The translations under genes were made by a program, and so were the position numbers. Positions 1,942-33,089 of a DNA stretch of 64,000 nucleotides are shown here, piece by piece. The stretch comes from Closterium sp. NIES-65 (Eukaryota > Streptophyta > Zygnematophyceae > Desmidiales > Closteriaceae). How positions within the stretch are numbered: the first letter of the stretch is position 1; the number at the start of each line of letters is the position of its first letter. The stretch covers positions 142,942 through 206,941 of the forward strand of contig CANXME010002503.1 of NCBI GenBank assembly GCA_948144175.1, read 5' to 3'. The notes below the pieces were generated by a model. That model made no database searches and was not told where the DNA came from. It saw only the letters and a list, made by a program, of their open reading frames with translations.

Positions 1942-4035
1942 CACCATGCCATGCAGGTGCGAGATCGATGTGAGCTGCACCAGGTTACGGTACCCCTCCA
2001 TGTCCTTGGCTAGAACAGTCAGGTGGTATCTGTGGAGTGGGGGGTGGATGTATGGGGGAAGCACTGCGGGCGTATGAGCGACGTGAGCTGCACCAGGTTG
2101 CGGTACCCCTCCATGTCCTTGGCTAGAACAGTCAGGTGGTACCTGTGGGTTCGGTGGGGAATACATCAGCATGCACGGGGAAGGCACGGGCATGAATAAG
2201 AAGAACTTTCATAAGTCACAAACTTCCCTTTCTCTTCTTTCCTGCCAACCAGTCTGCCTCTCATGCACTCACCTTTTGACTGGGGGTGCTTTGACCGCCT
2301 TGCCTGCCCCAACTGCCTCCGCCTCTCCTGCCTGTTCCTCCCCAGCCAGGCCTTCTGCCACCTCCCCCACAGCCACTCGCCCCACTTCCCCCTCTCCATT
2401 ACCACTCCCCTTAACAGCACCACCAGCCTCCGTTTCTCTTTCCAACACCACCTGTCCTCCACCTCCCACACCCCCCTCCCCCTCCACTGCTCCCATCCCA
2501 CTTCCCGTCCCGCTCTCCTCCCGCATCACCCCCTGATCCCCCTGCTCCCCCTGCTCCCCCTGTTCCCCCCGTTCTCCCTGCTCCTTCTCCTCCCTGAGTG
2601 CCCGCACAGCCTGCAGCAGGGCGGCGGGAGCGCCCTCGTCATGCACGAGGTACATCTCGTTGCCGATCACGGGCTTTAAGCCCTCCGCCTCGCACATGCG
2701 CACCAGCTGGAGGGCGCCATACATCACTGGGGTGGGGGGGAAAGAAAAGGAGAGGGGGGGGGGGGGGGGGCGGGGGGGAGAGAGCAGAAGACGGGGAGCG
2801 TGTGGGGTACAATGAAGGCGGAGAAGTGTGATGGGCGAGATGGGTGGGTAAGGCGCTTAGCAGACAGCAATCGAGTCGCCTACCATTAAACGTCGGTCAG
2901 ACGAAAGAAACAGGCATGAAACAAGGAAAGAAGGAAGAATGCAGTGGAGGGAGGAAGAATTGCGAGAGGAAAGAGAGGGATGGGGTGTGTGTAACATACC
3001 GTGCCATGGTCTGGGTGAATCAGACTGCCAGAAGGAAATTCTTTCGCAATTTGTGCATGGGATGGGACTCACAGCAGACTTACCACCATGGTCAGTGAGC
3101 GCAATGCCAGGCATGTTAAGCTCCTTGGCCCGTGCCACCAATCCCTTCAGCTGCCATGGCATGGAGGGTACGTAAGGACATACGGACGCAACATGAGGAT
3201 ATAATCGAGCGTTATACTTTCTTTAATCGTTGTACTCGTTGTAAAAGCCTCCCACCTGGCTGGCTCCGTCTAGAAGGCTGAAGTCACTATGCGTGTGCAG
3301 TGGCACATACTGAAGCTTCTCCGCCTTCTCCTCTCCAGCTCCGCCAACCCCTTCTCTCCCCTCCGCCTCCGCCTCCGCCTCGACCACCTCCGCTACACTC
3401 GTCCCCGCATTCCCCACTATACCCTGCGCATGCACCCGCCACGCTTCCCCACCTGGCGCGATCCCCAGCTTCCGCTCATCTCGGCGGGATTTCGACAAGG
3501 AAGGCAATCCCGAGGTAAAGAGACTCCGGCCAGACGTGGACAGGCCAGTGAGTGAGGCGGTGGGAGCTCGAAGTATGGATGACGGTGACAAGCCTGAGAC
3601 TGGGAGCGGAACGGCTACGACGGAGGACGGAAGCGCTGGGAGGAGACGACGGGAATGCCTACGGTTTGAAGGTAGGAGTGAGGTTGGAGTGGCTGACGTG
3701 GCAAATGAGCGAGGCTGGGATTGATGTAAGATCGCCACGTCGCATCCTCGTCCGTCGTTACGGTTGGAGACGGCGGCGGGTGTGCTGTGTAGGCTGCGCA
3801 ACGGCCGGCAAGCGAGCGCGGCGTCGGACGGTATGCTAAATTGAAGCATCGCAAGTCTTCCAAGATAGAGGCTTCCGGTATCGACGCTTTCTAGATTCAC
3901 TCGCTCGCAGCAGGGGGTTACGGAGGTCGTCGCGAACTCAGAGGATACCTCCTGCGATGGCGATCGATAATAACAGAGGTAACGGGAAAGGAGCTTCCCG
4001 GGACGAACGGCTGATGTGGCTCTGGAATGGAGCAT
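1942..4035 (-). CDS. dnaE: Bacterial-type DNA polymerase III alpha subunit, PHP-domain part (5' part of spliced gene)
   Basis: Four exons read on the minus strand: 4035-3256, 3150-3084, 2726-2273 and 2029-1942, with GT-AG junctions that keep frame. Residues ~1-240 form a Ser/Arg/Pro-rich extension that could be a plastid or mitochondrial transit region. The PHP start follows, with YVPLHTHSDFSLLDG, then across the introns MPGIALTDHGVMYGAL, GNEMYLV and VLAKDMEGYRNL. This is the collinear N-terminal order of bacterial DnaE. Exon 3 carries a Glu/Gly-rich insertion of about 110 residues between the NEMYLV strand and the next block, which is unusual for the family. The catalytic polymerase domain is not visible; it either lies beyond the left edge or has been lost. 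The introns exclude simple bacterial contamination. An organellar replication role is inference only. Confidence 0.8.
2075..2142 (-). repeat. Echo of the acceptor side of dnaE-like exon 4
   Basis: The first part of exon 4 (start 2029) is repeated 113 bp upstream with its own AG acceptor (exon-like start 2142). The two copies share about 60 bp and then diverge. The echo would encode the same VLAKDMEGYRNL block and then leave the family reading. Confidence 0.85.
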
Positions 4036-4299
4036 CTCAGATCATGGTGAGTGGTAGAAACAGAAATGGCGGAAAATGGCGGTTTCAGTGAAGGGGATGG
4101 GAGCTTCACCTACACGCTTCACCTCACCAGAAGAGTTTGGAGATCCCAAGGCGGTGCAGCAGATCCGCGTTTCTGGCCCGAGTCGATTCGAAATTGTACA
4201 GACTTATTGTAGTCCAATTCTAGCACAGATACTTGTTTGAATATTGAAAACTGTGAGCACATGAAAGTCTCTGACACTCTGACAGGTTCTGTTTTGCGG

Positions 4300-4956
4300 C
4301 GGCCATTTTCAGGTGCATGCAAATCAGTCAAGGCGCTTTATTCAGGTGCATGCCAGGTTGCGTACACTGTTCTCAGGTTAAACTATGGCTCTTGTAACTT
4401 GACACGCTGTTCAAGGCTCGATTAAATTTGGCACAAAATGTCTGAAATAGATCCGATTTCGGGCTACGCAAATCGGGGTCGGAATGGTTGGCTCTCGACT
4501 CGATGCTGCATTTTCTGACGTCACTCAGGGCGATGATTGCATTTCTGCCCAATTTCTACGCAAATCTTTGCTTCGCACCAACTCTTTTCGAACGAATTGT
4601 AATGGTAAATCGTTTGTACTCTTGGCGCAGGTGGCGGACGCTTCGCGGGTCAAACCAGCAAACCCTAGCGGGACGTGCATTCTTTGGAAAGGGTAATCCG
4701 AAACACGAGAAATATGCCCGAGTGTTAGAGGGAGTTACCCCTACGGCTATTAAGGATATATCGTTCGTTACCATCCGATCCCGATTTGCGTAGCCCGAAA
4801 TTGCATCTATTTCAGACCTTTTGTGCCAAATTTAATCGAATCTTGAACAACGTTTTAATTACAAGTGACATAGTGTAACCTGAGAAAAGTGCACGCAACC
4901 TGGCATGCACCTGAATATCGCGCCTTGAATAAGTTGCATGCACCTGAAAATGGCCG
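4300..4956. mobile_element. Mutator-like MITE with ~190-bp terminal inverted repeats
   Basis: The left arm (about 4300-4490) is the reverse complement of the right arm (about 4780-4956) with scattered mismatches. Both arms begin cggccattttcaggtgcatg when read inward. Immediately outside is a perfect 9-bp direct repeat gttttgcgg at 4291-4299 and 4957-4965. Long inverted repeats plus a 9-bp target duplication are characteristic of Mutator-like elements. The ~290-bp centre has no transposase, so this is a non-autonomous copy. It sits in the intergenic region between two divergent genes (dnaE-like and GT14). Confidence 0.9.
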
Positions 4957-5305
4957 GTTTTGCGGCGCTAGGCTGACCCAGACATGTCAGATTCCGTCCA
5001 TCATTTGCCCAATCCGGATTCGCTGCGTGAAGATTGTTCGAGAATCTAAAGGCACTCCGAAAAGCGAAACACCAACTCTTCAGAATGTGCGCAGCATTCC
5101 ATGTCAAAACGGCTGCAGCCCGAGTTTAGAAAAGGTGACGCTGTTGCAGACGTGCAGTCAGATCGCTGCCGTCGTGCTCCAAGGAGCTTCTGCGTCGTCT
5201 CGATCTTCAGTCCTCATAAGAGATTAGCGCCTTAATCCTCGATGGTCAGTTTAAAACTCCCTCGATCTCGTGAATGTTCGTGAGCTAACTCAGAGTCAAT
5301 AAGAG

Positions 5306-8300
5306 ATGCCGATTGTCGCCGCTAAAGGAGGGGTTTTAACGGGGAGCGCCGGTTCCGCCAGCAGTGTTCCAAGGCGCGCGAATCCCAAGGGCCGTAGCAC
5401 GAAACGTAGCATCCTCCCCGTCGCGTTAGGAATATCAGCGTTTCTCGCGGTTACCGTGCTGCTTTCGCCGCCGCTGCGAAAGCATCTGCGAAGCCTCGGG
5501 AGTTCAGAATCCGCTAGCGAAACCCGTGACAGCTATGGCCTCTCGACGACACTCCCACGCACAGACTCATCCACATCACACGAAGCGTTACCTGAAAACA
5601 CTTCCTCCTCTTCTTCCTCCTCTTCCTCCTCTTCCTCCTTCTCCATCCCTCCGTCTCTCGCGGGATCTCCGACCGATCCCACACCAGCGTACCTCCGCCT
5701 ACTAGCCAAGGACGAGTCTCCCTGCGTCAACCTTACCGGACACAGATGCTCCGACGAGGAGATAAGACAAGGCCCACCGCCCGGAAGCATGGACGAGCCG
5801 GTCTTATCCGCCGCTGACGTGGCGTTGTTTGATAGGGTGCGGAGGCTGTACCCCGAGGGACAACCCAAGGGGAGCGGTCAGGGGGAGGAGGACCGCGTCG
5901 CGTTCCTATTCCTGACACGTGGACCCATGCCTCTTAGTAGACTATGGGAGAGGTACCTACGGGTGAGCTTCCTTGCTGCTGCAAGTGTGTGAAAGCAGAG
6001 TTCTTTTTGCAAATGAGAGGGCCCATGCCTCTAAGTATACTATGGGAGAGGTACCTTCGGGTGAGATCCCATGCTGCTGCATGATCCGAGGTTACCTTCG
6101 CACCCCCCATTATGGCCCATTGTCTTACCTTCGGTGCGACCTGCAAACCCTACTGTCACTGCCACCACACACTCTCGCCCCCCCTCTTTTCCACCATCTG
6201 CGCCTGCCTCAACATCCCCTACACCTCGGCTGTCGCGCCGCTGCTCCATCTACCCCTTATTTCCCCCCTCAGGGCCACGAGCGGCGGTACTCAATCTACG
6301 TGCATGCAGCGCCGGGGTTCCAGTATCCCTTGGACTCGTCGCCTGTGTTCTACGCGCGGGAGATCCCCAGCGAGAAGGTGCAGTGGGGCGACCCCTCCAT
6401 GGTGGCGGCAGAGCGACGCCTCCTGGCGAACGCATTGCTGGACCCGGCCAACAAGAGATTCCTCATCGTCTCTGAGTCGTACGTGAGGGGATGGGATAGG
6501 AGGGATGAAGTGAATGAATGGGTGGGTCGGATGGGATGGGATGGGTTGGGGGTGTGTTGCCTCCTGGCGAACGCCCTGCTGGACCCGGCCAACAAGCGAT
6601 TCATCATTGTCTCTGAGTCGTGCGTGAGAGGGGAGGGGGGGGAAAGGGGATGGGTGCGTGGGAGCATGGGTGCATGGGTTGGTGAGTGGGTGGGTTGCTG
6701 GACCCGGCCAACAAGCAATTCATCATTGTCTCTGAGTCGTGCGTCGTGGGGTTGGATGGGATGCGATGTGGTGGGATGGGATGGCATCACCCCCACCAGG
6801 CATCGCCCCCACCAGGCATCACCCCCACCAGGCATCACCCCCACCACGTTTTTTTTCACGAGTTTTTACTGTTGTTCCTTTGCTTAAGCGTCCTCTCTAC
6901 TACTGCAGCCCTTCGAAACATGAGTCAGGGTTCATCATTGTCTCTGAGTCGTGCGTTGTGGGGTTGGATGGGATTCGATGTGGGCGCGTGGTGGGTGCGT
7001 GTGTGGGTGCGTGTGTGGGTGCGTGTGTGGGTGGGTGTGTGGGTGGGTGTGTGGGTGGGTGTGTGGGTGGGTGGGTAGGAAGGCTCATTGTTAATTGCTG
7101 TATCTCAGACTGCCGCCTCGTGGTTTGGGTGTCCGTCTCGCCTTATCAGCGAAAACAAATGCATGACCCTACGCTGCGTCCACTTCGCCTACCCATCACC
7201 CTCCTTCCCCTCCACACCTCATTCCCCCGACAAGTGCATGCCTCGGCACCCACCCCTCACCCCCCTCTTTACGCCCCATCCCCCCCAACAGATGCATGCC
7301 TCTGCACGACTTCCCCTTCACATATCGCTACTTGATGGCGGAAAACCAGAGCCTGCTGCACAGGTGGGTGAAGCAACGCGTTCATGCACTTCAATGCCTG
7401 AATGCACAACCATTCTAGGACTTCCCCTTTCCAACCCTTCTTCTTTCGACTAGTCCAACTATTTTAATTACCTCTCCCGTTGTCTCCACCCTCAGTGTCT
7501 CCCCTCACCCCACGCCCCTTCCTCGCCCCAATGCAGTGCGTGCAACAACGATTGGAACTGCATGGGGCACTACAGCAGTCGCATGCAGCCGCACGTGCAA
7601 AGGAACCAGTGGACCAAGGGCTCTCAGGTATACTCCATTCACTTCAAATAACTCCCATGAGTCAAGTCATATTCAAAGGCGTCTGCGGTCCAAGGGTACT
7701 AAGATGACCTTCGATTTCTTCCATCCTTTCATGTAACTCTTCACTGTTGCTCTGCCCGTCCTATCCTGAGCAGTGGTGGGCGCTGACATGGCACCATGCC
7801 TTCCTTGCTGCCACGGACACAACCATCTACCCCACCCTCGCCAGATGGTGCAAGGTGAGCACAGGGGAGTCGGGTGGCTTGCTTGTTGATGCGAGGCTAT
7901 GGAGGTGTTTCATAAGTGAGCAGCCATAGATGCAGTCCTGTCTGTTCAACTATTTATCTCTTGTCACTAACTCGGTGACAATCCCTGGTGTTTGTCTTTC
8001 CTGCCTTCTTCTCTCCGTGTGTCCCCACATACCATTTCTTTCTCGATTGCAGGGTGACAACTGGCACCGGCACTGCTATTTGGATGAGCATTATTTTCAA
8101 ACATTACTCAAGGTACTCGCAGATTCCCTCACCATTCTTTCCCCTCACCACCACTGTCTCCCCACTCCTTCCCTACTCATGATTTACACTATGCCTCTAT
8201 CCCTTTCCCCACTCATCCCTCCCTCGCTCTCTCTCCTCCCTTCCTTTCCCCCATATCTTCCTCTGTTTTCCCTTCAAGATCCGCGACCCAGAGCACGTGG

Positions 8301-8518
8301 CGAGAAGAGGACCCACATGGGCGATGTGGTCAGGGGGGCCGCACCCTGTGGAGTACACACGGGAGCAGCTCACCCCGCGCTTCCTCACGTCGGTCAAGTG
8401 GGACTCCAAGTGCTCCTGGGGCGGCCACCAGAACTCCTGCTTCCTTGTTCTTAGGAAGATTGCACCCAGCGCGCTGCAGACCCTGCTAAATTACACTCCG
8501 GAAGAGCTTGGTTACTGA
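5306..8518 (+). CDS. GT14-family (core-2/I-branching-like, DUF266) glycosyltransferase
   Basis: Seven exons: 5306-5962, 6273-6478, 7292-7363, 7537-7627, 7774-7854, 8053-8112 and 8279-8518, all with GT-AG introns that keep frame to the TGA at 8516. An N-terminal hydrophobic stretch at residues ~35-52 predicts a type II Golgi membrane protein, followed by a Ser-rich stem. Diagnostic blocks in order are VAFLFLTRGPMPL, YSIYVHAAPGF, LLANALLDPANKRF, then SESCMPLHDFPFTYRYL split across an exon junction. RNQWTKGSQWW, a WHRHCYLDEHY block and a C-terminal TWAMWSGGPHP / VKWD / CFLVLRK region follow. This matches the plant GT14 order. Substrate is unknown; cell-wall or arabinogalactan glycan synthesis is the usual guess for plant members. 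The 5' ends of exons 2-7 follow clear pyrimidine tracts. Confidence 0.9.
6017..6060 (+). repeat. Echo of GT14 exon 1 donor side
   Basis: The last ~44 bp of exon 1, including RGPMPL and LWERYLR and the following GTGAG donor, recur 98 bp downstream of the real donor (5963 versus 6061). One base change turns the serine-arginine pair into serine-isoleucine. The donor is intact. Confidence 0.9.
6560..6950 (+). repeat. Three successive echoes of GT14 exon 2 donor side
   Basis: Exon 2 ends at 6478. Shrinking copies of its 3' end follow at 6560-6619, 6695-6738 and 6931-6950, each ending gagtc before a GTGCGT-type donor. Copies 2 and 3 also share the following intron sequence (ggggttggatggga). They encode the LLDPANKRFIIVSES block again and would give repeated protein segments if retained. 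Confidence 0.9.
6975..7078 (+). repeat. GTGTGGGTG simple repeat in GT14 intron 2
   Basis: Tandem gtgtgggtgcgtgtgtgggt units run directly after the last exon-2 echo. The tract is G/T-only and could act as decoy donors or form G-rich structures in the transcript. Confidence 0.85.
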
Positions 8519-10180
8519 GTGACTGATGTGGTACCTAATCTATGGAACATATTGTAATGATTTGTGTTCAACAGTGAGGTTGATGTGCAGAAGGGGAACC
8601 TTGTGAGCGCCATATGCTAGTCAGAATGGAAGATCTGATGGGAACCAAAGCCAGAGGTACCCAGTCGTGCACGTTGGCTGTGAAGTCTTGGAACAAGCTA
8701 ATGGGTAGTTGTAGTAGCAGTGATGGGAGAGGAATGGAGGATGACATGGAATGTGGAACAGGATCGTACAAACAAAGGTTGAGGAAAAAAACATGGTGGA
8801 ACATGTTGGGTCTCCCGGCTTGGGAAAATCATGTCGCGCAAGATTTGTAATGTTGCCTACCGTTTCTTGCCTAGGTTGTCTTGCAAAGCGCGAGTTCTGT
8901 TCCCCCACAGTGGTAACGCCGTTCTTGTGCATACCAGGGGGTAAAATAACGCATCCACCTTTGAAGGAGCATCGCATCACCCATTAGGTTGCCAATCGTA
9001 TGTAAAGTATGTGAAACTTGGGAGCTAAAGCTTTTCTGGAATGCATTCTGTATCGTTCATCTGAATAGGATCGATCAGGTGAAGGTGATTGAGGGATAAA
9101 TGGTATTACGGGTTGCCATAGTTTCGATACAACCATGCTTCGGCAGATGATGTTTGTGTGTCAGAGCGACACGTCTCATTACAAATAATAGTTGCGCTTG
9201 GCCGTTCGATCAATCTGGTGTACCCAGAAACGGGAGAAGCATGAAGATCGACGACAACCATCACATCACACAGATGTTGCCATGGAGCATCACATCATGC
9301 CGTTGTGTCACAAGCATGTGCTTCTGACACTCGATTCCCGCTCAAATGGCGGAGCGCGCCGTGGTGCGGAGATTCCGAGGATCTTCTCGCAAACGAAATT
9401 GCTATCCCCGTCGTCAGCGCTATCACGAAGGCAGTCCGCTGACCATACGGCGGCTTGCCCCTGGCAGGGGAAATGGTAATGGATACTCAGTTTCTGCGAA
9501 TCCTTCCTCACCACTCTCGATCCATCTAAATCTCCTTAAGTTCACCTCTGAACCTGGCCCTTTTCACTCGTGATCACCTTTTTTCCTAACTGCATTCTCC
9601 AACTTCCCTGAACGTCTTTCTTTCCAAGATTCCTTGAGATAGCTCACTACGCTGAAGTCCATGGCTGTCGCCAGCTTGTTACGAACCATTAATGGCTCTC
9701 GATCGTAGTATTAGTCTTCTTAATCTTTATTTTTTCTTATCACGAGGTCGTTAAGCCGGAGATCACTGATCATTGCAAACCCTTTAAGTGTTACGCCTGA
9801 TCTAGTCGGACAGAGACATTTGAAGCTTAGAAGCTGTAGTCATTCAGAGCAGTTTCATCTCCGTCATCTAGCAATCTCTCTTGACTGCAGTTCTGATTTC
9901 TGCTCCAGTTTCCAGAACAACTTGGTAGAAGTATTCTAGACGTCCGTCGAGCGCGGAACATAGTCTTCCGATCTCCATACGCTCCTTCTAGTCACGAGGC
10001 GTCGCCGCTCTCCAGCAGCGAGAAAGTTTCGATTTGGTGATGACGGAGGCTGCTGGCGACAGCTGATTCACACGGCGAAGACAGCGCTGAATGATTATAC
10101 GGGGTTAGCGATGCGTACTTCGGACTTCGACTCGGAGTAGCTAGTCATCGGCATCTAACGGCGGTGAATGAGAAGATGTT
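8519..10180. other. GT14 downstream region, no gene recognised
   Basis: The GT14 stop is followed by probable 3' UTR and intergenic sequence. Short ORFs occur on both strands, but none has a domain I recognise or splice-site context. Confidence 0.5.
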
Positions 10181-10934: not shown

Positions 10935-12455
10935 CGCCTGCGAGCACCCCGTTACAGCTAAGTTCCCTCTTCCTTCGCTCTTGCCATCCTTGCCGCTTCT
11001 GCTTCGTGTATATCATTGCCCACATCTGGTACACGTTTTTCCCTCCAGCATGCTTCGAAAAAAAAGTTGAGTGAGAGATGAGTGGCGATTTGGCGATGGT
11101 AGCGCATGGCACTGGGGCGGCTTGCGCTCATACTAGAGTCGTAGGGGGATAGAGTAGAATGCATTCATACACATGCCCGCGTCCGTCGTCCCCGCCTGCT
11201 AGCTCGCTGCCCTAGTGCTGTGTGCTACCATCGCCTCCCCTTTCACTACGTCACCGTGCCACATGCTTTCTATCTTATGCTTTTGTTTCCGTTACTCATT
11301 CGTTCTTGTTATCTCTGCCTCCTTGCATGCGTTTCTATACTTTCTTGCTTCTACTGACTACTTGGCTTCCTTTCCCCCACTCGCTCCTCTTGCCCTCCTT
11401 TGCTCCACCCCTCTCGTCCAGTGCTATGGCAGCGTGGTGCGGAAAGGGAGGGCGGTGGGATGACGCACGGCGGGCAGTCACAGCGGTGTGCTAGCCTCCT
11501 GGAAGCCTGACGCCACTGTCCTGCAAGCACCCCCATACGGCTAAGTCCTCTGCCCTAGCCATCCGTGCCGCTTCTGCTTCGTGTTTATTACTGCCCTGAT
11601 TTGTTCAGCGTCTTTTCCTCACTGCATGTTTGAAAATACGAAATGAGAGACGTGAGACGAGCGTCAAACGTTGAGTGAGAGATGAGCGGCGATTTGGCGA
11701 TGGTAGCGCATGGCACTGGGGCGGCTTGCGCTCATACTAGAGTCCTAGAGGGATAGAGTAGAATGCATTCATACACATGCCCGCGTCCGTCGTCCCAATT
11801 GCCTGCTAGCTCGCTGCCCTAGTGCTGTGTGCTACCATCGCCTCCCCTTTCACTGTGTCACCATGCCACATGCTTTCTATCTTATGCTTTTGTTTCCGTT
11901 ACTCATTCGTTCTTGTTATCTCTGCCTCCTTGCTTGCGTTTCTATACTTTCTTGCTTCTATTGACTACTTGGCTTCCTTTCCCCCGCTTGCTCCTCTTGC
12001 CCTCCTTTGTTCCACCCCTCTCGTCCAGTGCTATGGCAGCGTGGTGCGGAAAGGGAGGGCGGTGGGATGACGCACGGCAGGCAGTCACAGCGGTGTGCGA
12101 GCCTCCTGGAAGCCTGATGCCACTGTCCTGCAAGCACCCCCATACCGCTAAGTTCCCTGCCCTAGCCATCCTTAACTCTTCTGCTTCGTGTTTATTACTG
12201 CCATGATTTGTTCAGCGTCTTTTCCTCACTGCATGTTTGAAAATACGAAATGAGAGACGTGAGACGAGCGTCAAACGTTGAGTGAGAGATGAGCGGCGAT
12301 TTGGCGATGGTAGCGCATGGCACTGGGGCGGCTTGCTCTCATACTAGAGTCCTAGAGGGATAGAGTAGAATGCATTCATACACATGCCCGCGTCCGTCGT
12401 CCCAATTGCCTGCTAGCTCGCTGCCCTAGTGCTGTGTGCTACCATCGCCTCTCTG
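10935..12455 (+). repeat. ~605-bp tandem duplication, two full copies plus partial ends
   Basis: The phrase ttgagtgagagatgag starts at 11067, 11671 and 12278 (spacings 604 and 607). Similarity extends left of the first copy to about 10935 and stops in the third copy near 12455. Each unit contains a pyrimidine-rich stretch and an exon-like gtgctatggcagcgtggtgc segment. The third copy runs into the unidentified possible gene to the right, so this may be a duplicated 5' region. Confidence 0.92.
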
Positions 12456-15980: not shown

Positions 15981-18900
15981 CTACCCCCTTCTCATTCTCG
16001 GATCCCTTCTCTCTGCCACACTCCCCTTCTCACTCCTCCCTCCTGCTCTCCTCTCCCCTTCCACCCCTCCCCTTCCCTCCGCCTCTCCATCCATAACCCT
16101 CTTTCTCACTCCTATCCCCCTCTCACCATCACCTCCCACTCCTCCGCTGCTTTGGCCTGAGCCAAAGCTCCGACGCTGGTCATTTGGACCTGCTCTAGCC
16201 GAACCTCGCCCCGAACCTCCGCCCGAGGTTGCACCTCGGCCACCAGAAGCACCTGCGTTCCTAGCAATCCTCGGATCATTGCTCTTAATGTTACCACCCA
16301 CAGGGTTACCACCAGAATTCATGGCTCGCTGTCCTTCTCCCACACCCGCTTTTCCTCTGGTTCCCCCACTTGTCCCTTCTAGCTCTCCCACCCCTCGCCC
16401 TCCTCCTCCTCTTCCGCCTCCTCCTCCTGTTCCGGTTCCCTCTCTTCCTCTCGACACCTGTGTCCCTACTTGACCCCCACTCCTCTTCCCTCCTTTCTCC
16501 TCCTTTTCCTCTTCGCTCTCCTCATCATCCTCATCAGAATCATCATCTTCATCATCAGAATCATCCTCATCATCGTCGTCATCATCTGAATCCTCCTCTT
16601 CCTCCTCCTCTTCTTTCTTCTGGCTCGCTCGTTTGTTCCCTGCCTGACGTGTGCCTGTATTTCCCCCATTACCCCCATTACCCCCACTTCCTCCCCCACC
16701 GCCACCATCACCCATATGCATGCCCATGCCATACCCATTTGAACCCATACCAACAGCCCCACCACCCATATTCATGCCCATACCCATACCGCCCATACCC
16801 CCCATTCCACCCATACCCCCCATATCCCCCATCCCCATTCCTCCCATTCCCATGCCCATGTGCATGCCCATTCCGCCCATCCCACCCATCCCTCCGCCCA
16901 TCCCTCCGCCCATCCCTCCGCCCATCCCTGCCCCCATCCCTCCGCCCATCCCTCCGCCCATGCCCCCCCGCCCCTGCGCCTGAGCTTGCTGCTCCATCAG
17001 TCTCTTCTTCTCTGCTTCCCGTGCCGTGGCCTGGAGGGGGGGGGGAGAAGAGGGCGAATGGTGGAGAAGGGGAGAGAGAGGGCGTCAACACAACAAGAGG
17101 CATACCAGCAAGGCACTGCCTGAGCTTGCTGCTCCATCAGCCTCTTCTTCTCTGCTTCCCGTGCCGTGGCCTGGAGGGGGGGGGGAGAAGAGGGCGAATG
17201 GTGGAGAAGGGGAGAGAGAGGGCGTCAACACAACAAGAGGCATACCAGCAAGGCACTGCCTGAGCTTGCTGCTCCATCAGCCTCTTCTTCTCTGCTTCCC
17301 GTGCCGTGGCCTGGGGTGGGGGGGGGGAGAGAAGTGGGGGAGCGAGGGGAGGGCGAAAAAAGAGTAACTTTGAGGGGTGAGAGGGCGGGTGAGAGGCAGA
17401 GGACGGCTGAGAGGAGGGGTAAAAAAAGAGGCAGAAGAAAGGGGACAGAGAGCGCCCAGCAGCATACCAGCAAAGGAGCGTCTGGCTCGCGGTACAGCAG
17501 TGCAGTCAGCTGCTCGCCTGCTGATGGCTCCACCTCCTGGCAGTCCCGGCTGATCTTCACGGGCTGGTTGTCGTTGTACTGGTTGCGCAGGTGGCGTGTC
17601 TTGTTGAACGAGAGCTCGCAGAGCTGGTACGTGGAGGGGAAAGTGGGGGAAATGACGCAGAGAGCAGAGGAGTAACAGGGGATGGAGAAACAGCCCTATC
17701 AAGATTTGATCGTCGCTGCACTGTTTGCGCAGATGGCGTGTGGCCTCCTTTGTGCTTACTCAGTGCACCCCAATTTCCCCTCTCTCTCCCTCCTCACCCC
17801 ATCGAATGCGGAAGTTCTACCCATAGTTGCCTCCGCTGAGCATACTCAGTGTAACCCCCATTACACTCTCCCCTCTTCAATCTCCTCCCCTCCCCTCTCC
17901 CCTCCCCCCCTCACCTTAAGCCATCGGATACGAAAGTTTTGACCATAGCTGCCCATCCTCTGAGCATACTTCCACGGCCCTCCCCCCACCACGGCCCCTA
18001 TGCGTGACATCATTAGAGCACAGCCCTGCACGCATGGAAGAAAGAGTGTGGGGAGGGGAGGGAGAGTGAGGAGTGTGGAAAGGGGAGTGAGAATAGGCCC
18101 TAGGCGAGACGACATACTCGATCTTCAACGGTCCTCCCCCCACCACCGCTCATATGCGCGACATCATCAATACACAGCCCTGCACGTGTGGAAAAGAGGG
18201 TGTGGGTAGGGGAGTGAGAGAGTGAGGGTGAGGAGTGTGGAGGGGGGTGAGAGTGAGGGTGAGGAGTGTGGAGGGGGGTGAGAGTGAGCACTAGAAGGCC
18301 AAGAAAACGTTGTCACACTACTCGTCGTACTCCGCATTCAGCTTTAACCAGCTCTGCACCCCCTAGCCCTCCCCACCTGCAAGTGCCACCTGTGCTGTGC
18401 TTTGTCCTCTCACCTGGAAGTGCCTCGTCTCATTCACGGAGAAGATCAGAATAACGCTGTCACACGACTCGTACGCCTCGTTCAGCTTCCCCTCGTTGTT
18501 GCGGTGCGTCGCCCACATACCCCTCTGTGCTGACAGCTCCAGATTTTCCAGATTATTGCTCTTCACTATGAAGTACCTGCAGGGGTAGGGGTGGGAAGGA
18601 GGGTGGAGAGGGAGGGAGGGGAAGGGGGAGGTTGTTGGAGGGGCTACTGGTTCAGTCGCCCACATGCCCCTCTGCGCCGACAGCTCTAGATTCTCCACAT
18701 TGTTGCTCTTCACTATGAAGTACCTGAAAGGGGGGAAATTGCAAAACATGTCTAAGAACCACCAAGGCAGAAAGCATCACCGAGACAAAGAAAGCACCCC
18801 CAAGGTGGGCGTTCCCTCCCTCTCTCCCCTCCCACACACACACCTGGTTGTGAGACATATCAAAACCAATATTTTTATCACAACACCCCCAAGTGGGTGC

Positions 18901-21900
18901 ACTGCTCCCACACACACACCTGGTTGTGAGACATATCAAAACCAATATTTTTATCACAACACCCCCAAGTGGGTGCACTGCTCCCACACACACACCTGGT
19001 TGTGAGACATATCAAAACCAATATTTTTATCACAACACCCCCAAGTGGGTGCACTGCTCCCACACACACACCTGGTTGTGAGACATATCAAAACCAGTAT
19101 TTTTATCACAACACCCCCAAGTGGGTGCACTGCTCCCACACACACACCTGGTTGTGAGACATATCAAAACCAATATTTTTATCACAACACCCCCAAGTGG
19201 GTGCACTGCTCCCACACACACACCTGGTTGTGAGACATATCAAAACCAATATTTTTATCACAACACCCCCAAGTGGGTGCACTGCTCCCACACACACACC
19301 TGGTTGTGAGACATATCAAAACCAATATTTTTATCACAACACCCCCAAGTGGGTGCACTGCTCCCACACACACACCTGGTTGTGAGACATATCAAAACCA
19401 ATATTTTTATCACAACACCCCCAAGTGGGTGCACTGCTCCCACACACACACCTGGTTGTGAGACATATCAAAACCAATATTTTTATCACAACACCCCCAA
19501 GTGGGTGCACTGCTCCCACACACACACCTGGTTGTGAGACATATCAAAACCAATATTTTTATCACAACACCCCCAAGTGGGTGCACTGCTCCCACACACA
19601 CACCTGGTTCTGCCCCCGGTGGCGGGAAAATGGCGAGGCCCATGGGCGGAGAGGGCGCCATCGATGCAACGCCTGCTGCTGAGTAGCTGACATATTTGTC
19701 ACTTAACACACACACAACACAACCACACACCAGCACACGCATGCAACGACACACGCACCTGGTTGTGCCGGGTGGTGGCGGGATGGCGAGACTCATGGGC
19801 GGAGATGGCGCCATTGCTGCTCCCATGCCTGCTGCTGACGCATCCCCCATCATCATCCCCCCTTCCCCGTGCATCCCTCCTGCTCCCCCGCCCATCCCCA
19901 CTCCCCCCATCCCTCCCCCCATCCCTCCCCCTCCCCCCATCCCTCCTCCTGATTGACCCCCCATCCCTTGCTGTTGCTGCATATGCCCCTGATTTGGAGC
20001 ATTTGCCTGATTTGGAACGTTTGCCTGATTTAGCATGTGCGCCGGCCCGCCTCCGCCCCCAAATCCTCCTCCACCACCATCACCACCACCACCCCCACCA
20101 GTAGCAGCAGCAGCACCACCTTCAGCAGTCCCCATACCGCCCATCCCACCCCCTGATTCTGCCCCGTCCCTTCCGTTCCCCACCCCATTGGCAACATCTC
20201 CCCCTCCCCCTCCCCCTCCCCCTCCGCCTCCGCCTCCGCCTCCCCCTCCCGCTGTGGGTGCGCCCTCTGCTCCCCCTTCGCCCGTGGTTCTACTCACCCC
20301 TTGCATCCCTCCTCCCCCTTGCTGCTGCTGTCCCCCCTGCTGCGCCTGCCCCCCCTGCCCCCCTTGCTGCCCCTGCTGCTGCCCTGTTTGCTGCGCTTGC
20401 TGATTCACAACTGAACCCCCTGCCCCTCCGCCCGCCCCCATTCCCCCTCCGCTTTGCCCCATTCCCCCTCCGCTTTGCCCCATTCCCCCTCCGCCTGGCC
20501 CCATCCCCCCTCCGCCTGCGCCCATCCCCCCAGCAGGCCCTGCTCCCCCGCCTGCTTGCCCCATGTGCCCCCCTTGCCCCATCTCCCCTCCTCCCCCCAT
20601 TCCCCCTCCCCCGCCTCCGCCCATACCCCCACCTGCTCCTCCCCCAGACCCCATATTCCCCCCTGGTCCCATTCCCCCTTGCCCCATGCCTTGCCCCATG
20701 CCTCCCCCCATGCCTCCCGCTACCCCCATCCCCCCTCCGCCATGTGCGCCCATCCCCCCGCCCCCCTGCTGCTCCACCCCCCCAGGTCCAGAAAAGAACC
20801 GCACAGGCTTGTTGCCTCCGCCCATTGACCCCCCATTCCCCATCCCCATTCCCCCCATGCCTCCTCCCATGCCTCCCCCCATGCCTCCGCCCATGCCTCC
20901 CCCCATGCCCCCTCCCCCGCCCCCCATCCCCCCCGCGAAGTGGAAGGGCGGGCGCTGCTGCAGCTGCAGCTGAAACTTTTCAGCTAGGGCCTCCACAGGA
21001 GGGGGCGGGCCGGGCAGCTTTAAATGTCTGTAGCGGCAATCCGGGCCGTTCGGGCAGAATCCAAGCTTGTACCTGGGGCGGGGGACGGGTAAGGGGAAGG
21101 GGAGGGGGGAGCGCGGGAGGGGGTGGACTATGGGTGACAGGGATGAATGGTAAAGGATATTGTTAACAGCACAGAACACTGGATCACAATTTCGGTCAAA
21201 TGAGCATATAACAAGAAGCAATTGAGGGCGCATGCAAGATGAGGCTATGAGCAGGGTAGAACAGGCAGGGCCTGTAAGGGGAAGCCAACTTGCTTGCAAT
21301 GGAAACCGCAAGCAGAATTAGGATATGCACGAGAGGAAATGCAGGAATATTAACGATTCAATGCACGCAATCATTTGCACTGAATAGCCATGTGTGCGCC
21401 AAAGGCACGGGCAGAACAGTCTGAAAAGATTCTGGCTGAAACGGACAGGAGGTGCAAAAGGAATGATTTTATTATTACCAGGAAGGAATATTGACAACAA
21501 ATAATAGATGCATACGTTACAAAGAATCAATCGCAACAATCCCAACTCCTGCCTCGTCTGAACAGAAGCAGAGAGCACACACATATGGCCTAAATCCCGC
21601 GGATACCCTAAGCTGGTGCGCACCACAACATATATACAGAGATCTGAAAAGGCAAGACAACAGTCACAACCGTCGAAATCATCACGGATACTGCTGAGTT
21701 TACTGAAGCACCTTCACAACAGGCGCAATTGATCGTCATTTAACAAGTAAACCGTAACGTACATGTTACACTCCTTGACGTCTTCGTTGGTGTGTTTGTA
21801 CACGCAGTCAAGCTCCCTGCACTCGCCCCACCGCGCAAAGTACCGGCAAACCGGCATGCGGCTCTTGTCGTACTGATGCAGAAACCCGCAGTCGTTGCCC

Positions 21901-22024
21901 TTCATGCACAGCCCGCGCAGCCAGTGCCGGCAAACGGTCTGCCGGTAATTCCGCCGGAAACCGGCAGGCGGCGGGCCTCCCCCGTGCCCCCCTCCCATGT
22001 CGTGTGCCTGCTGCTGATGTGGCG

Positions 22025-22055
<31 letters not shown>

Positions 22056-22337
22056 ATGCTGCTGACTTTGCGGGAATTGATGGTGTTGCTGCTGCTGCTG
22101 GTACGGGGGTTGCGGGTGCTGCGACGAACCCCCGCCGAACCCATCGGCCCGCGCGCCGAAATTGCCGCCGCCCGCTCCGCCGGCTGCGCCCGGGCCGGCG
22201 CTCGGCTCCGCGGATGCCGCCGCGCCGGGCGCGGAGGCGGGGACAGCGGTGCTGAAGGCGGGCGCGGACGGCGGAAGCGGGCCGGGGCCGAGCGTCTGCT
22301 CGAAGTCGAAATCCTCGAGAGCATCGTAGTCGTCCAT
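15981..22337 (-). CDS. CPSF30: CPSF30-YTH: polyadenylation factor 30 kDa subunit fused to an m6A-reader domain
   Basis: Exons on the minus strand: 22337-21763, 21072-19759, 18576-18414, 18025-17915, 17623-17468 and 17030 to about 15981, all keeping frame. Three CCCH fingers are visible: CRHWLRGLCMKGNDCGFLH, CRYFARWGECRELDCVYKH, and a third split over the first intron (CNMY + KLGFCPNGPDCRYRH). Exon 2 continues into a ~400-residue Gly/Met/Gln-rich low-complexity linker. The YTH domain spans exons 3-5 with YFIVKSNN, RGMWAT, ILIFSVN, VGGGPWKYA and LCELSFNKTRHLRN. The two cage tryptophans in GMWAT and GGPWKY are present. The last exon is Gly/Met-rich with an acidic run. The long form reads m6A and steers poly(A) site choice in plants. 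The linker between exons 2 and 3 is uncertain because of exon echoes and a minisatellite there. Confidence 0.93.
16978..17313 (-). repeat. 140-bp tandem unit, three copies, carrying the start of the last CPSF30 exon
   Basis: The acceptor and first ~55 bp of the last exon (encoding EAEKKRLMEQQAQA) occur with exon-like starts at 17030, 17170 and 17310, exactly 140 bp apart. Only the copy at 17030 runs on into the Gly/Met-rich exon. The upstream two are acceptor-side echoes with intact AG sites and nearly identical sequence. Confidence 0.92.
17785..17845 (-). repeat. Degraded echo of CPSF30 exon 4 donor side
   Basis: The segment resembles the end of exon 4 (17960-17915): a tatgctcag phrase, a caactatggg segment matching the gcagctatgg of exon 4, and a cattcgatgg terminus. 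It has small deletions and no good donor. It lies downstream of the real exon, as expected for a donor-side tandem copy. Confidence 0.65.
18095..18179 (-). repeat. Echo of CPSF30 exon 4 acceptor side
   Basis: A copy of the 5' half of exon 4 starts at 18179, 154 bp upstream of the real start at 18025, again directly after tgcag. It has several substitutions and a deletion and does not preserve the VGGGPWKYA reading. A further pair of short repeats (gaggggggtgagagtgagg) follows at 18235-18290. Confidence 0.85.
18650..18723 (-). repeat. Echo of CPSF30 exon 3 (YTH start) acceptor side
   Basis: The first ~68 bp of YTH exon 3 recur 147 bp upstream (starts 18723 versus 18576) with a strong pyrimidine tract and CAG acceptor. 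The copy encodes YFIVKSNN through RGMWAT with one Leu-to-Val change, then enters intron sequence. It looks fully spliceable as a 5' alternative. Confidence 0.93.
18835..19612. repeat. 76-bp minisatellite, about ten copies, inside CPSF30
   Basis: A 76-bp unit beginning cacacacacctggttgtgag repeats with almost no variation (one A/G difference at about 19097). On the transcribed minus strand each unit contains cacaaccag followed by gtgtgtgtgtggg. That is the terminal exon-like motif plus donor of the neighbouring exon-2 end. The array occupies most of the intron between exon 2 and YTH exon 3. Confidence 0.96.
19609..19690 (-). repeat. Echo of CPSF30 exon 2 donor side
   Basis: After the real exon-2 end (19759), a copy of its last ~70 bp follows. 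It encodes MAPSPPMGLAI instead of MAPSPPMSLAI and ends aaccag before a GTGTGTG donor. A possible acceptor (cagcag) precedes it, so it could also serve as a short extra exon. The 76-bp array begins at its donor. Confidence 0.85.
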
Positions 22338-23081: not shown

Positions 23082-26000
23082 CTATATATCAAGATCATCA
23101 TCGGGGTCTTCATCCGAATCTGGGTATTCGTCATCCGAATCGCGCTCATAATGAATCAAACCACCACCTCCACCTTCGCTCCAATCGCCCGCAGTGCCTC
23201 CCACTGCAAGTTCCACCATACGAGCCGATACACCACCAACCGAAAACTCTCCATGAGCCTTTGCTGTTTCCTTGACGTGGCTTGGCGCAAGGCTCCTTCT
23301 CCCGTCGTATATCTTGATTGGGCCAGTTTCGCCTGAGGAATGGGCAAGGACAGTTAAGGGCGGAAATGACACCAACAGTCTTCAGAGTTATGACGGAATA
23401 GAGAAAAGAATAAGGAGAGGCAAGAATACAAGAAGAAACTAGTAACAAGAAACTCGAGCGCCAAAGTGGAGGGGCAGGGTTGGGCAGGGTTGGGCAGGTT
23501 TGGGCAGGGTTGGGCAGGTTTGGGCAGGGTTGGGAGAAGTTGCAACCAACCTCGGTGTTCATAAGGCAGCACCACTTTCTCTCTTGCAGCCCGTTCCTCC
23601 TCAGACAGCTCTAAGCGGAACGAGACCTGATGATGGGTGGGGGGAGCATGACACATGGTTGCAGAACATTCGTGAGAGTTTGACAAACTTTGCAGCGGAG
23701 AAGAAAGAGGAGCGCGGCGAAGGAGTCTCAGAGTTGCTGATGGGGAGGGTAACAGAGGGGGGGCGGGGACAGAGAGAATAAATAAAAATCCTCTGACCAT
23801 GCAGAGAAATTACAGCATGCAAAGCATTTGGCATTCTCACCTCTGGCGCCCGATCTCCAATCGTCCTGATCGGCTCCACGCCTGCAGCCTCCCCTCTCCC
23901 TGTCGCCCCTCTGTGTGCCCCCTCTGCAGGCTGCTGCTCTGGCAGGGATACGTTTGCAGGAGGTACTTTAGAGGTGTCTCTCCTGCTGTCGCTAGCGACT
24001 GTGGGTTGAGGCGCGGTCTCAGGAGATTCACTGGGCGCGGTGGGTGGTTGCGGTGTGCGCACAAAACCCTTGGTCTGTGCGCTGATGTGCACTGCTCCTT
24101 GCCGGTCGAAATGAAACTCCTCAAGCTGCAGCGGATGTAAATGGAGGGAAGGAGAGAGGAACAGTCACACGTGATTCACAAGGGGAAAGTGGGCTGCTGC
24201 TGTGGTGTGCGCACAGAGCCCTTGGTCTGTACATCTATGTGCACTGCTCCTTGCCGGTCGAAATGAAACTCCTCAAGCTGCAGCGGAGGCGAGTGAACAG
24301 AGGGAAGGGGAGAGCAGAGAGAGGTTACAGGCCCTTGTGCCAGAGGTGGGCTGCCAAACTGACGGACGGACGGATAGACAGTCAGACACGCTTCGAAGAC
24401 GCCACTGTTCTGGCTGGGGCAAACCAGACAGCCCACCTACCGCAGACCAGACAGCCAGACAGCGCCAAAGAGACAGACCTACCGCAGTTCGGAATTTCCC
24501 CGAAGCCCTCTTCTGCTGCAACACCAGTATCCCTCCCGGTAGCACGTGCCGCTCTCCCATACTTTCCACACCCATGCTGCCACCACTCTCGCTCCTGCCG
24601 CTGCTGCCCCTCCCACCGATATTACCAGTGCCAGCTGTGCTGCTGCTAGAGCTACTCATGCCAGAAGTGACAACTGAGTTTCCCGATGGGTGATGAGAAG
24701 AGGAGGGATGAGGGAGTGATGGAGAGGAGAGGAGGAGGGAGAGAGGGAGGAGGGAGTGGCCGGGATGTGGATCCAGGGAGAGGAGTGCGTGCGCCATGTG
24801 GCGCAAGGAGGAGGTGACAGCTGGCGGGGTGACGTCAGCATGGGAGAGGAGGAGGAGTCCTGAGACTGAGGCTGGAAGGGAGAGAGGGAGGGGAGAAAAG
24901 GAGTACAGATAACAGATTGTGCGAGGGAGCAATGGGCGGATTAGTGGATGAAGGAAGAGTACAATCCGTGGCAAGGCAGGGGAGGGAAACAAGCATGATG
25001 ATGAAGATGCACATCAAAGAACGGACGTTATAACAGCTCCCTAATCGTGACATTATAGCAGCTCCCTGCACGCAACGTGCTCGAGCATGCCTCCCTGATG
25101 ATCCGTTCCTCCCTCCCACCCCCCCTTACCATGCCACTGCAGTCGTGCGATCATGGCGAGCAGGGCTGCTGGCGTGTTGTGGCGCAGGAAGGGGTCCAGC
25201 TGATGGCATGGCAGGCAGAGGGAATGGTGGGATGGCATGGCATGGTATGGAGAGCGAATGGTGGGATGGCATGGCATGGTATGGAGAGAGAATGGTGGGA
25301 TGGCATGGCATGGTATGGTATGGAGAGAGGGGAAATGCAGGGAGAGCGAGAATACAAGGAGAAGTGGGATTGAGGAAATCCGAGGGAGGGAGGGAAGAGA
25401 AACGAGTGAGGAACGCAAGAAAGAGCCGAAACGAGTGAGCAGCATCAGTGACGTACCTACTGAGTCTAGAATGAACTTAAGACGTCTCAAAAGCCGGCAA
25501 ACGAATGGCATGGATGACGTACCTACCGAGTCTAGCAACACAATGGACGGAGGGCTCCCTTGCGCGCCTGTGTGTGATTCGGCGGCTTGCGGCTTGGCTG
25601 CCCTACTGGAGTGCAAGTGATGGACGTAGGGTGTGAGGACATGAGGGTGTGACAACATGTGGCTGTGAGGTCATCATGGTGTGAGGACATGGGGGCGCGT
25701 GAGGTCATCGGGGTGTGAGTATATGGGGGACGATGGAAGGGATGGTGATGGTTAAACAGATACTACATAAGGCCGCTTCGGAGGCATGGGAACTTACAGA
25801 ATGCGCTGCTCAAGTGACTGCAGGTCCCACACGTTGCAGCAGCTGCTGACAATCGGATCCGCTGTGCTGCTGCCTGCACTGCCACTGCCTTCACTGTCGC
25901 CGCTGGGATTGACTGGGTGACTACAGGGCGACTGAAACGGCTGTCCCCATCCCATGGGGTCAGAGCAGCAGTTTATCAGTGTGCCATGGCACGCGCACAG

Positions 26001-26415
26001 GCCCCCCGCAGCGCCATGGACGGTGGTTATGGCGGTTGTGGCAGCGCGGGGTGAGGCCAAGACCAGCACTGCTCGGCTGGGAGGGGGTTGCGGGCAGAGA
26101 GGGGGGGAAGTGGAAGAGGGGGAATGGCGGGAATGGACACAAGATACGCACACAGACCCCACACACACACACTACACACACGCACGCATCACACACATTC
26201 TCACATAACACACACGCAAACGTCACGCGTGCAGACATTAACACACACCTTGCCTGTGCGCGATTGCAGTGGATCGCTCGAACCAGGGACTCAGTCATGT
26301 GGCGCAAGATCTGCCAGCCACCCAGAACGTGACACGTGTCGCTTAGCACCACCGTCGGTGCCTCCATGCCATCGATCCGTCCCTCCCGCAACAGACGCAC
26401 CGCTGCGGCCGCCAT
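23082..26415 (-). CDS. ELP5: Elongator complex subunit 5
   Basis: Minus-strand exons that I can place well: 26415-26249, 26076-25798, one ending near 25545, about 25210-25133, one around 24840-24750, one ending 24483, then 24125-23841, 23626-23551 and 23332-23082. The N-terminus has [13 protein letters not shown] and an AVLVLASPR strand. Further blocks are [50 protein letters not shown] and [10 protein letters not shown]. The C-terminus ends [12 protein letters not shown], the acidic tail I associate with plant ELP5. Elongator subunits 4-6 form a RecA-like ring that supports tRNA wobble-uridine modification. Low-complexity Ser/Gly and Pro segments lengthen the protein. Exon limits in the middle (25700-24490) are approximate. 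Confidence 0.85.
23461..23545. repeat. gggttgggca repeat in ELP5 intron
   Basis: About seven tandem 10-11-bp units of gggcagggttgg and variants lie between the last two ELP5 exons. Confidence 0.85.
24183..24277 (-). repeat. Echo of ELP5 LEEFHFD exon, acceptor side
   Basis: The first ~85 bp of the exon starting at 24125 recur exactly 152 bp upstream (start 24277) after the same ccgctgcag acceptor. The echo encodes [20 protein letters not shown] and reaches a stop about 30 codons in. Using it would truncate the protein. A shorter double copy of the preceding donor (cctaccgcag) lies at 24436-24486. Confidence 0.92.
25204..25330. repeat. ~40-bp tandem repeat in ELP5 intron
   Basis: Three copies of a unit containing gaatggtgggatggcatggc and atggtatggagag are present. 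The unit is purine-rich on the plus strand. Confidence 0.9.
25440..25545 (-). repeat. Echo of ELP5 IVLLDS exon, donor side
   Basis: The exon end ctagactcg plus donor gtaggtacgtca near 25545 recurs about 71 bp downstream (near 25474) as ctagactcagtaggtacgtca. The copy has an extra base at the junction. Confidence 0.8.
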
Positions 26416-27727
26416 GAGCTTGTGATCGACAATACAACTTCGCAATGACTGTAACAAGCTTATCGAAATGCTCCCGCTCCTTTGTGCCACCGATCCCGTG
26501 AACTACAGTAATTCGCGATTCTTGCAGCAATCCTCTAAGCTTGATAGCTAGTGTGTGTGTCCACCAGCCGTAAATCTGCTGTATCTCTCGTCCTAATCCT
26601 CAGTTCTTCGAGACGGAGCGATCCCCTAGGCTCCTGAAGTTAGAAGTCGCTAGTGCTGAAGCAGCAGCTTGAAACTAGATTCGACACGAGGAGCCATTTC
26701 TACGTTCACTCGGGGTCAGTCGTGAACGTCTCACCGTCCAGGGGTCATTTCTGCTCCTGACACCGAACGGGTGTTCCATCCTGCCCGAATTCATGGGGTC
26801 ATTGCACGCTTCGCGACATTCCGCGACAGCCGTAACACCGAGTCGCAGATGGACCTGGGTTTCCTGGCTGACCCCACAAAAATGTTCGCGAGCATGTGCG
26901 ACGAATTCACAAAACGACCTCTTCGCAAATCTTGTGTCAGGACCAGAATCTGAGCCAATCATGTTCAACCCTAGCCTCAAGCTCATATGGTCCCAAACCT
27001 GCCGTAGTTTGGGAAAGCGTGAGCCATGCATACAGCCCACGGCATCACGCCTCAGCCACGCATACAAACAGTCACATGCAAACCCAGGCACCAACCACTT
27101 TCTCGTCGCCTGGTCGCAACAGAAAGTAACCCTCGTACTGTTTTCGCTCCTGGCCACACCCCAGTCAACTCCTTCGCCTGCACTAATCGACAAGGCATCG
27201 CCAATAGGGTTTCCCTAGCTGCGAACAACCTCCACCTTGGGATCATCATCACCAGGTGACCAGCAAGAGACCACCATGAATCGCCTTGTCCTTGGCCAAC
27301 CTCATCTTTTTTACCTCGTCCGTTTCCCCTCCCTCCTTGTCCTTCCACTTGACACTTCCCTCTCCTCGTACACCATCCTGTTCAGCACATCCTATTTTTT
27401 CCCAGTCTGGTAGGCCTAGGAGGAACTACTGTACTAGGGTCTCAGAAGTCCGTTTCAGATTTAGCAGGTTGCTCTTATCGTGCTAGAAGTTTTTGTGCAG
27501 TTAGCTCATCCAGTCCATGGATGACCTAAAGTTTAGCTGAACGTAGGTTCGTAGCTATCAGCGGGAACGAGGAGGACGACCTGACCCTAGTTCAGGGCCC
27601 TGCTCTGTGGGCCCTGGACGTAGAATTAGTTTAGGACTTGCGCCTAGCAACCAGAAAGTGGACAGGCGATAGAGTTCGTTTCATACGACCGTAGCTTAGG
27701 TTTGAACGACCCTTGCAAGCTTCGGGC
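26416..27727. promoter_or_regulatory. Divergent intergenic region between ELP5 and CK1
   Basis: The two start codons (26415 minus, 27728 plus) face away from each other across 1.3 kb, so this should hold both promoters and 5' UTRs. I found no definite core-promoter motif. A 172-codon minus-strand ORF at 26675-27193 has no recognisable domain and I do not call it a gene. Confidence 0.6.

Positions 27728-33089
<5,362 letters not shown>

Follow-up and report, generated by a model that had tools for sequence, protein, structure and literature searches.

The stretch of Closterium sp. NIES-65 DNA described here, called the window throughout, comprises 64,000 nucleotides (C2205:142942-206941, without any N) of an assembly of 874 Mb in 2400 contigs. 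It contains five genes for which exon-intron models with GT-AG introns and continuous open frames could be built, and the introns of these genes hold what we call echoes, that is, copies of an exon end together with its splice site inside the adjacent intron. The genes are the 5' part of a DnaE-like gene (1945..3849, minus strand, 4 exons modelled; Pfam PHP/DNA polymerase III), a GT14 gene of the Branch family (5306..8518, plus strand, 7 exons; Pfam Branch/GT14), a CPSF30-YTH gene (15981..22337, minus strand, 6 exons; Pfam YTH), an ELP5/Iki1 gene (23082..25199, minus strand, 5 exons modelled with the 5' exons left out; Pfam Iki1/ELP5) and a CK1 gene (27728..33090, plus strand, 13 exons; Pfam protein kinase), which together have 30 introns with a median length of 300 nt. 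Twelve CK1 exons join into one 350-residue frame and the end of the 13th was placed by eye, and the dnaE exon 2/3 boundary is possibly one codon off. The best solved-structure match of CK1 exons 5-6 is 3sv0, "Casein kinase I-like", which we take to be a rice protein, and the CPSF30-YTH fusion is a feature of the plant lineage. The DnaE-like gene extends on C2205 below 142942 and is also present on contig C2160, the other haplotype, at about 48.7-61 kb; it is a nuclear, intron-rich gene for a bacterial-type DNA polymerase III alpha subunit with PHP and finger domains, and its best NCBIfam model is PRK07374. Viral contigs, searched with one protein each, yielded no relatives, and genome contigs gave only four bacterial matches with 28-33% identity.

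A preliminary description of this DNA had claimed short tandem copies of exon ends with the adjoining splice site in all five genes, and self-BLAST, alignment and comparison with foreign introns confirm this. Altogether 17 of the 60 exon ends score higher against their own adjacent intron than any of 1640 foreign-intron comparisons, the highest of which reaches 30, and these 17 ends have offsets of 85 to 156; the best of 60 reverse-complement control comparisons scores 23. Counted at a threshold score of 34, with several copies per junction allowed, the window holds 21 echoes (9 donor and 12 acceptor) in 12 of its 30 modelled introns, and the other 18 have none at this threshold. The pairs span about 71 to 100% identity. 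Exon parts had been described as often preserved and intron parts as drifting. Of 17 window units, 8 still have intron halves that can be aligned (z 3.9 or more), and those of the youngest units are near-identical; this speaks for tandem duplication of the unit as a whole. In-frame stops occur in three window echoes. Chance similarity as the source of the echoes was rejected by the foreign-intron nulls, both here and in the CCT genes treated below, and the pairs persist after masking of TRF arrays (longest period 45) with dust on, which disposes of a pure low-complexity or minisatellite effect.

In the dnaE part of the window, exon 4 (1945-2029) has an acceptor echo at 2076..2148 (minus strand, offset 113), which is present also in the diverged allele on C2160. 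Exon 1 of GT14 (5306-5962) has a donor echo at 6019..6065 (plus strand, offset 98), which is polymorphic, being absent from C2160, and exon 2 (6273-6478) is followed on the same strand by three donor echoes, the first at 6559..6627 (offset 141), the second at 6695..6744 and the third, which is shortened and 96% identical to the second with the intron half included, at 6931..6956. The last exon of CPSF30-YTH (15981-17030) has two acceptor echoes on the minus strand, at 17118..17178 (offset 140) and 17258..17314 (offset 280), and the whole unit of this 140 x 2.5 repeat is near-identical. All further echoes of this gene lie on the minus strand as well: a weak acceptor-side echo of exon 5 (17468-17623) at 17712..17741 (offset about 142, score 40), a donor echo at 17799..17846 (offset about 124) and an acceptor echo at 18123..18186 (offset 154) of exon 4 (17915-18025), a weak donor-side echo at 18302..18344 (offset about 144, score 39) and an acceptor echo at 18655..18726 (offset 147) of exon 3 (18414-18576), and a donor echo of exon 2 (19759-21072) at 19596..19682 (offset about 156). 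Adjacent to the latter a 76-bp x 10 array at 18829..19609 (minus strand) has a unit that holds the donor-like ACCAG/GTGTGTG, as in the neighbouring donor echo. The ELP5 exon at 23841-24125 has an acceptor echo at 24201..24285 (minus strand, offset 152). In CK1, on the plus strand, exon 5 (29080-29246) has an acceptor echo with an in-frame stop at 28960..29011 (offset 127), and exon 9 (30707-30833) has an outer (30450..30508, offset 251) and an inner acceptor echo (30574..30637, offset 125) as well as a donor echo at 30920..30984 (offset 144), in which TT replaces the donor GT of the exon. A donor echo of exon 12 (32160-32236) follows at 32282..32358 (offset 113), and exon 13, which starts at 32883, is preceded by an acceptor echo at 32733..32808 (offset 142) and an older one at 32604..32652. 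Most of the spacings proposed earlier were recovered, namely 113 in dnaE, 98, 141, 119 and 212 in GT14, 140+140, 147 and 154 in CPSF30, 152 in ELP5 and 127, 126+125, 144, 113 and 142 in CK1, and CPSF30 adds 122-124, 155-156 and the weaker 142 and 144. A CK1 spacing of 83 proved marginal, being found at 85 with a score of 33 against the null maximum of 30 and thus standing outside the count of 21; from the older CK1 copies given as about 183/151 one, at 32604-32652, passes; and no ELP5 spacing of about 71 was recovered, as the donor there matches best over 11 nt at offset 42, with a score of 22, inside the null.

Echoes are not restricted to the window. In five CCT chaperonin genes on other contigs, 24 of 30 introns hold echoes (33 donor, 39 acceptor) at score 34, a score which 6 of 1424 CCT nulls reach (maximum 40), and with the cut placed above all 1424 nulls 29 donor and 38 acceptor echoes, 67 in total, are left in 23 of the 30 introns. 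These genes are the five modelled among eight loci, from hand-picked open stretches with ends not splice-resolved; the eight were taken from 11 groups made by eye from 93 PF00118 matches, three of the first five because their matches hinted at duplication and the last three because they were short. Acceptor echoes had been said to lie upstream and donor echoes downstream of the true exon, and where an intron has both kinds the donor echo indeed precedes the acceptor echo in 5/5 comparisons in the window and in 41/41 in the CCT genes (37/37 at the stricter cut), an order to be expected because independent tandem duplications at two junctions must give it. An array in CCT gene L038 (C43, gene-oriented 4611-6038) has 11 acceptor copies with a 124-bp unit ahead of the real exon, which are 97-100% identical; this array and the CPSF30 140 x 2.5 repeat are recent whole-unit duplications.

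In 15 gene loci (83 kb) there are 120 direct versus 4 inverted local pairs, a count to which window dnaE and C2160 dnaE both contribute as overlapping alleles, so that it includes a small number of pairs twice. Elsewhere in the dnaE gene there are 1.1 pairs per kb, and in a second gene on C2160 1.2 per kb. About 68 kb of control DNA has 4 pairs, and as much of it is transposon or unannotated its contrast with the gene loci is a guide only: three pairs lie in window 8.6-15.9 kb, 0 and 1 in two arbitrary 10-kb stretches, and none each in window 35-53.5 kb, window 53.5-60.5 kb, C2160 8-18 kb and C2160 73-78 kb. On the basis of these controls, a uniform tandem duplication everywhere in the genome is disfavoured. 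The genome-wide process that had been proposed thus stands as far as it reaches well beyond the window, spans boundaries and has a step of about 100-150 bp (120:4 pairs, mode 144), but not for every gene. That every well-read host gene would carry echoes is contradicted by the 18 echo-free window introns and by loci without any pair, which are the CCT/Cpn60 locus on C326, window 61-64 kb and a 20-kb stretch of C2259 surrounding a CK1 paralogue. Ten exons and nine introns were identified in this paralogue (exons 11 and 12 escaped detection), and the nine compared introns contain no echoes, eight of them being shorter than their window counterparts. Its introns 8 and 9 measure 126 and 125 nt, compared to 360 and 363 nt in the window copy, where the same two introns hold two acceptor echoes and one donor echo.

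Probably, although with considerable room for doubt, the echoes arise when DNA of nucleosome length is duplicated in direct tandem across splice junctions, an event that recurs, is tolerated through splicing and is followed by decay. A short direct tandem duplication, typically of about 145 bp, would straddle an exon-intron boundary and copy the exon end, the splice site and some of the adjoining intron. The duplicate would fall on the intron side and the exon-proximal site would keep giving the normal mRNA, hence the tolerance. Each event would lengthen the intron by roughly one unit, and after repeated events the intron would consist of donor echoes and, behind them, acceptor echoes, with copies that would decay as non-coding DNA next to a real exon that would remain constrained. 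Both the tandem duplication as the event and its tolerance through splicing are what we infer from the following observations. The unit length, measured as the offset, has its mode at 144 bp, and 39 of the 106 offsets of 60-220 fall in 138-158, where a flat distribution would give 13.8. Over 60 introns the length of the intron correlates with the number of echoes (Spearman 0.79) with a slope, calculated without the intron of 11 copies, of about 155 bp per echo, and the median intron has 620 nt with echoes and 221 nt without. An enrichment at junctions, which had been suggested as a check, is seen as well: only 9 of 49 pairs with at least 85% identity in the ten modelled genes lie in intron free of exon or echo sequence, as against 40% predicted by random placement (p about 0.001; here and below, p-values treat pairs as independent, and families of copies are related). 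A moderate junction bias therefore exists; quicker decay of pure intron copies may account for part of it, and part is geometry, because with exons and introns this short almost any unit of 145 bp will include a junction. The idea that the units are centred on the junction was dropped, since window units carry at most 80 nt of exon but those of a dnaE array near 60 kb on C2160 about 120 nt.

That the unit length is set by the nucleosome is a conjecture drawn from this length. A duplication gauged by the nucleosome would have units near 147 bp, and the mode of 144 bp is close to this. Two opposite-strand nicks in the linkers flanking one nucleosome might be opened, filled in and rejoined, which is the idea of paired-nick repair applied to units of nucleosome length. 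Tandem duplications from paired-nick repair are known in plants, and such repair would duplicate, in direct orientation, whatever lies between the nicks; we know of no nucleosome-length mode or splice-junction pattern among them. A further-going version, which we regard as possible but rather doubtful, would have the nucleosome-measured duplication act solely in genes that are transcribed and contain introns, perhaps through a link with transcription or splicing. Introns would then be built outward from both exon ends, a large part of intron DNA would consist of stacked decaying boundary copies, and the spliceosome would have to tell true sites from near-identical decoys.

The decay of the copies can be followed in dnaE, where the exon of the other allele served as outgroup for polarisation. 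In ten dnaE echoes outside one array the echo side has 8 synonymous to 27 non-synonymous changes and the exon side 9:1, and when changes common to two orthologous echoes are counted once the echo side has 7:20, which matches the share of 0.28 assumed for random change. The oldest echo pair has 1 synonymous to 12 non-synonymous distinct changes, and the oldest dnaE echoes drift neutrally. For the younger echoes we infer neutral decay; eight of them have 6:8, which differs significantly neither from random change (p 0.24) nor from the higher unpolarised share (p 0.28). An initial view from counts by eye, that all echoes are protein-constrained, was overturned by these polarised counts.

Several observations weigh against recurrent junction-spanning duplication with neutral decay. 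Some genes lack the process, which a uniform rate does not explain, and the correlation with intron length is partly built in, as longer introns give matches more room. Had CPSF30 intron 4 grown by simple tandem duplication, its original length would, by subtraction, have been only about 25 nt. At CPSF30 147, dnaE 113 and CK1 144 the intron halves cannot be aligned, although the exon halves are 90-95% identical. The neutral dnaE count rests on the one old orthologous pair, the echo side being 6:8 without it. Moreover, 44 unpolarised coding pairs have 233 synonymous to 160 non-synonymous differences, a synonymous share of 0.59 (gene bootstrap 0.55-0.66), whereas a simulation of a neutral echo beside a constrained exon gives 0.42. 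Finally, five echoes in the dnaE array at about 60 kb on C2160 have echo-side changes of 29:12. This donor-echo array (C2160:59985-60500 and C2205:127104-127720) has 3 and 4 copies including the exon, with mostly synonymous differences, and all seven copies retain the donor; a genome search with one copy found no other locus.

An exchange between diverged alleles could account for several of these points. An intron break would be joined after invasion of the shared exon, so that the copies would differ from birth and mainly synonymously, which fits the synonymous excess of the unpolarised pairs as well as the unalignable intron halves of some pairs. Diverged alleles are at hand: in the pieces that cover the first 6 kb of the window, where dnaE lies, C2205 and C2160 are just 72-88% identical, with some stretches near 60%, as against 97.6-99.9% on the two flanks and 97.8-99.9% in the pieces spanning window 6 to 33.8 kb. 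One mosaic pair has 1 difference in the first 71 nt and 10 in the next 46. The dnaE intron-3 echo in C2160 agrees at three polarisable sites with the exon of the other allele and not with its own, a pattern that could come from transfer or, equally well, from a change in the C2160 exon. On the other side, the intron halves that are alignable in 8 of 17 units, with some units near-identical throughout, are not what such an exchange would leave, and it does not predict the 144-bp mode. The acceptor echoes of CK1 exon 9 share about 97% identity with their own exon but only 87-88% with the paralogue, and a genome search with one dnaE echo gave just the two alleles. A second dnaE locus as the source of the diverged copies was considered and none was found with one 138-nt probe. 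Overall we hold allele exchange to be an unlikely origin of the echoes. It would explain the dnaE array, the synonymous excess and the intron-3 echo, and selection on some echoes would do so too.

Selection might keep the echoes as functional decoy, poison or alternative splice sites or as alternative coding exon ends, which we regard as quite improbable for the echoes in general. Echo splice sites score far above the intronic background, and therefore transcripts carry many decoys; echo donors are not significantly weaker than real donors (p 0.20, with the best site within 4 nt taken). Some CCT pairs differ almost only synonymously, e.g., 14:1 and 8:0, and the 29:12 of the dnaE array looks like coding constraint, so that this array would be the strongest candidate for functional echo exons. 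Against a general function speak the three window echoes with in-frame stops, the lost donor GT of the CK1 exon 9 echo, the polymorphic GT14 echo and the CK1 paralogue, which does without echoes in nine introns. Furthermore, the oldest dnaE echoes are neutral (1:12) and the younger ones have 6:8, and multiples of 3 are not enriched among the unit lengths (41, 29 and 50 of 120 for the remainders 0, 1 and 2). The preliminary description had offered mutational bias or selected splice sites as the cause, and it is the duplication process that these data favour, with the oldest dnaE echoes and the 41/120 multiples of 3 arguing against selection.

It is very unlikely that the assembler strung alternative haplotypes or repeats together and so produced the echoes as an artefact. 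Near-identical haplotigs do exist among the contigs, and one echo lies near the point where the haplotypes switch between diverged and near-identical. The identity of the pairs, however, varies from about 71 to 100%, C2160, a separate contig, has the CK1, CPSF30 and ELP5 echoes as well, with single nucleotide polymorphisms inside two CK1 echoes, some echoes are common to alleles whose introns barely align, and in a window without N their order and unit length are too regular. A mobile introner-like element that inserts at exon ends and leaves the echoes as long target-site duplications is extremely improbable: the spacer of the GT14 98-bp echo has no counterpart in the copy-free haplotype and so resembles an insertion flanked by a direct repeat, but exon ends lack matches of echo strength in foreign introns (maxima 30 and 40), a genome-wide search with one echo matched just its own two alleles, and at 60-80 bp the target-site duplications would differ from those of 3-9 bp given for some introner families in passages of PMC9860276.

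Intron gain by tandem duplication is described in parts of PMC4974935 for vertebrate ATP2A1 and for potato RdRp, where the duplicated stretch supplied branch site, polypyrimidine tract and 3' splice site from existing intron/exon structure. Like there, a local direct duplication inside the gene carries splice signals and leaves the protein unchanged. In contrast to this kind of intron gain, the echoes lengthen existing introns, many times per gene and from both ends; the comparison, made for CK1 only, shows nine introns shared with a paralogue that lacks echoes in them, hence no new intron has appeared. The echo units also include existing intron at one existing junction, clearest in 8 of 17, and are thus different from an exonic unit with AG/GT. 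In Drosophila, five probable cases of tandem duplication are given among 31 novel intron positions in sections of PMC2891723, which likewise involve local duplication of coding sequence with splice motifs, but these are new introns, whereas here introns are lengthened by 93 echoes in 10 genes. Introners also change gene structure at genomic scale, and text from PMC9860276 reports a nucleosome connection through insertion in linkers; they are one dispersed element, however, whereas echoes copy the neighbouring exon end, with no single dispersed family according to the exon-end and one-probe tests. Tandem exon duplications and mutually exclusive exons, as portrayed in extracts of PMC9013439 and PMC9741552, similarly place extra coding-exon copies within introns. 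Mutually exclusive exons are complete copies with both splice sites and the frame kept, but the window echoes are partial, include one junction and are often out of frame; the dnaE array may differ in this respect. The larger partial gene duplications reported in portions of PMC10487979 are unlike the echo pattern. No description of a serial, both-ended junction duplication of near 145 bp as a mode of intron growth was found among the matches listed from the open-access literature.

Intron lengthening is usually ascribed to transposons or indels, while here the length of introns is directly related to one step, a duplication of about 145 bp across a junction, and the echoes form a record in which divergence gives the order of the steps. 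The arrays amount to ready-made experiments with near-identical 5' or 3' splice sites at fixed spacing, only one of which gives the right protein, so that exon definition and the choice of site become testable. If confirmed genome-wide, the unit length would link a class of duplications to chromatin structure. Gene prediction in such genomes will be misled by echo exons.

Some further features of the window stand apart from the echoes. A block of about 15 kb (window 1 to about 6 kb, compared with C2160:46.7-61 kb) is 72-90% identical between the haplotypes or has no match, with flanks of 97.6-99.9%, which amounts to mosaic heterozygosity. Within it, positions 1-1007 are a 31-bp minisatellite with 100% identical units, which is perfect in C2160 too, and the adjoining DNA is just 62-91% identical between the haplotypes. 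A 583-bp unit is repeated about 2.6 times at 10937-12451, in DNA without a modelled gene. Reading frames of Copia-type retroelements, recognised by eye, occupy 35673-47096 and 47802-53459 on both strands, and no local echo pairs occur in window 35-53.5 kb. Two long minisatellites with 22-bp units, whose compositions are alike but on opposite strands, lie about 1 kb apart at 55987-57081 and 58021-59203, and they are followed on the minus strand, at 61352-63095, by a partial gene that presumably resembles RRP1/NOP52.

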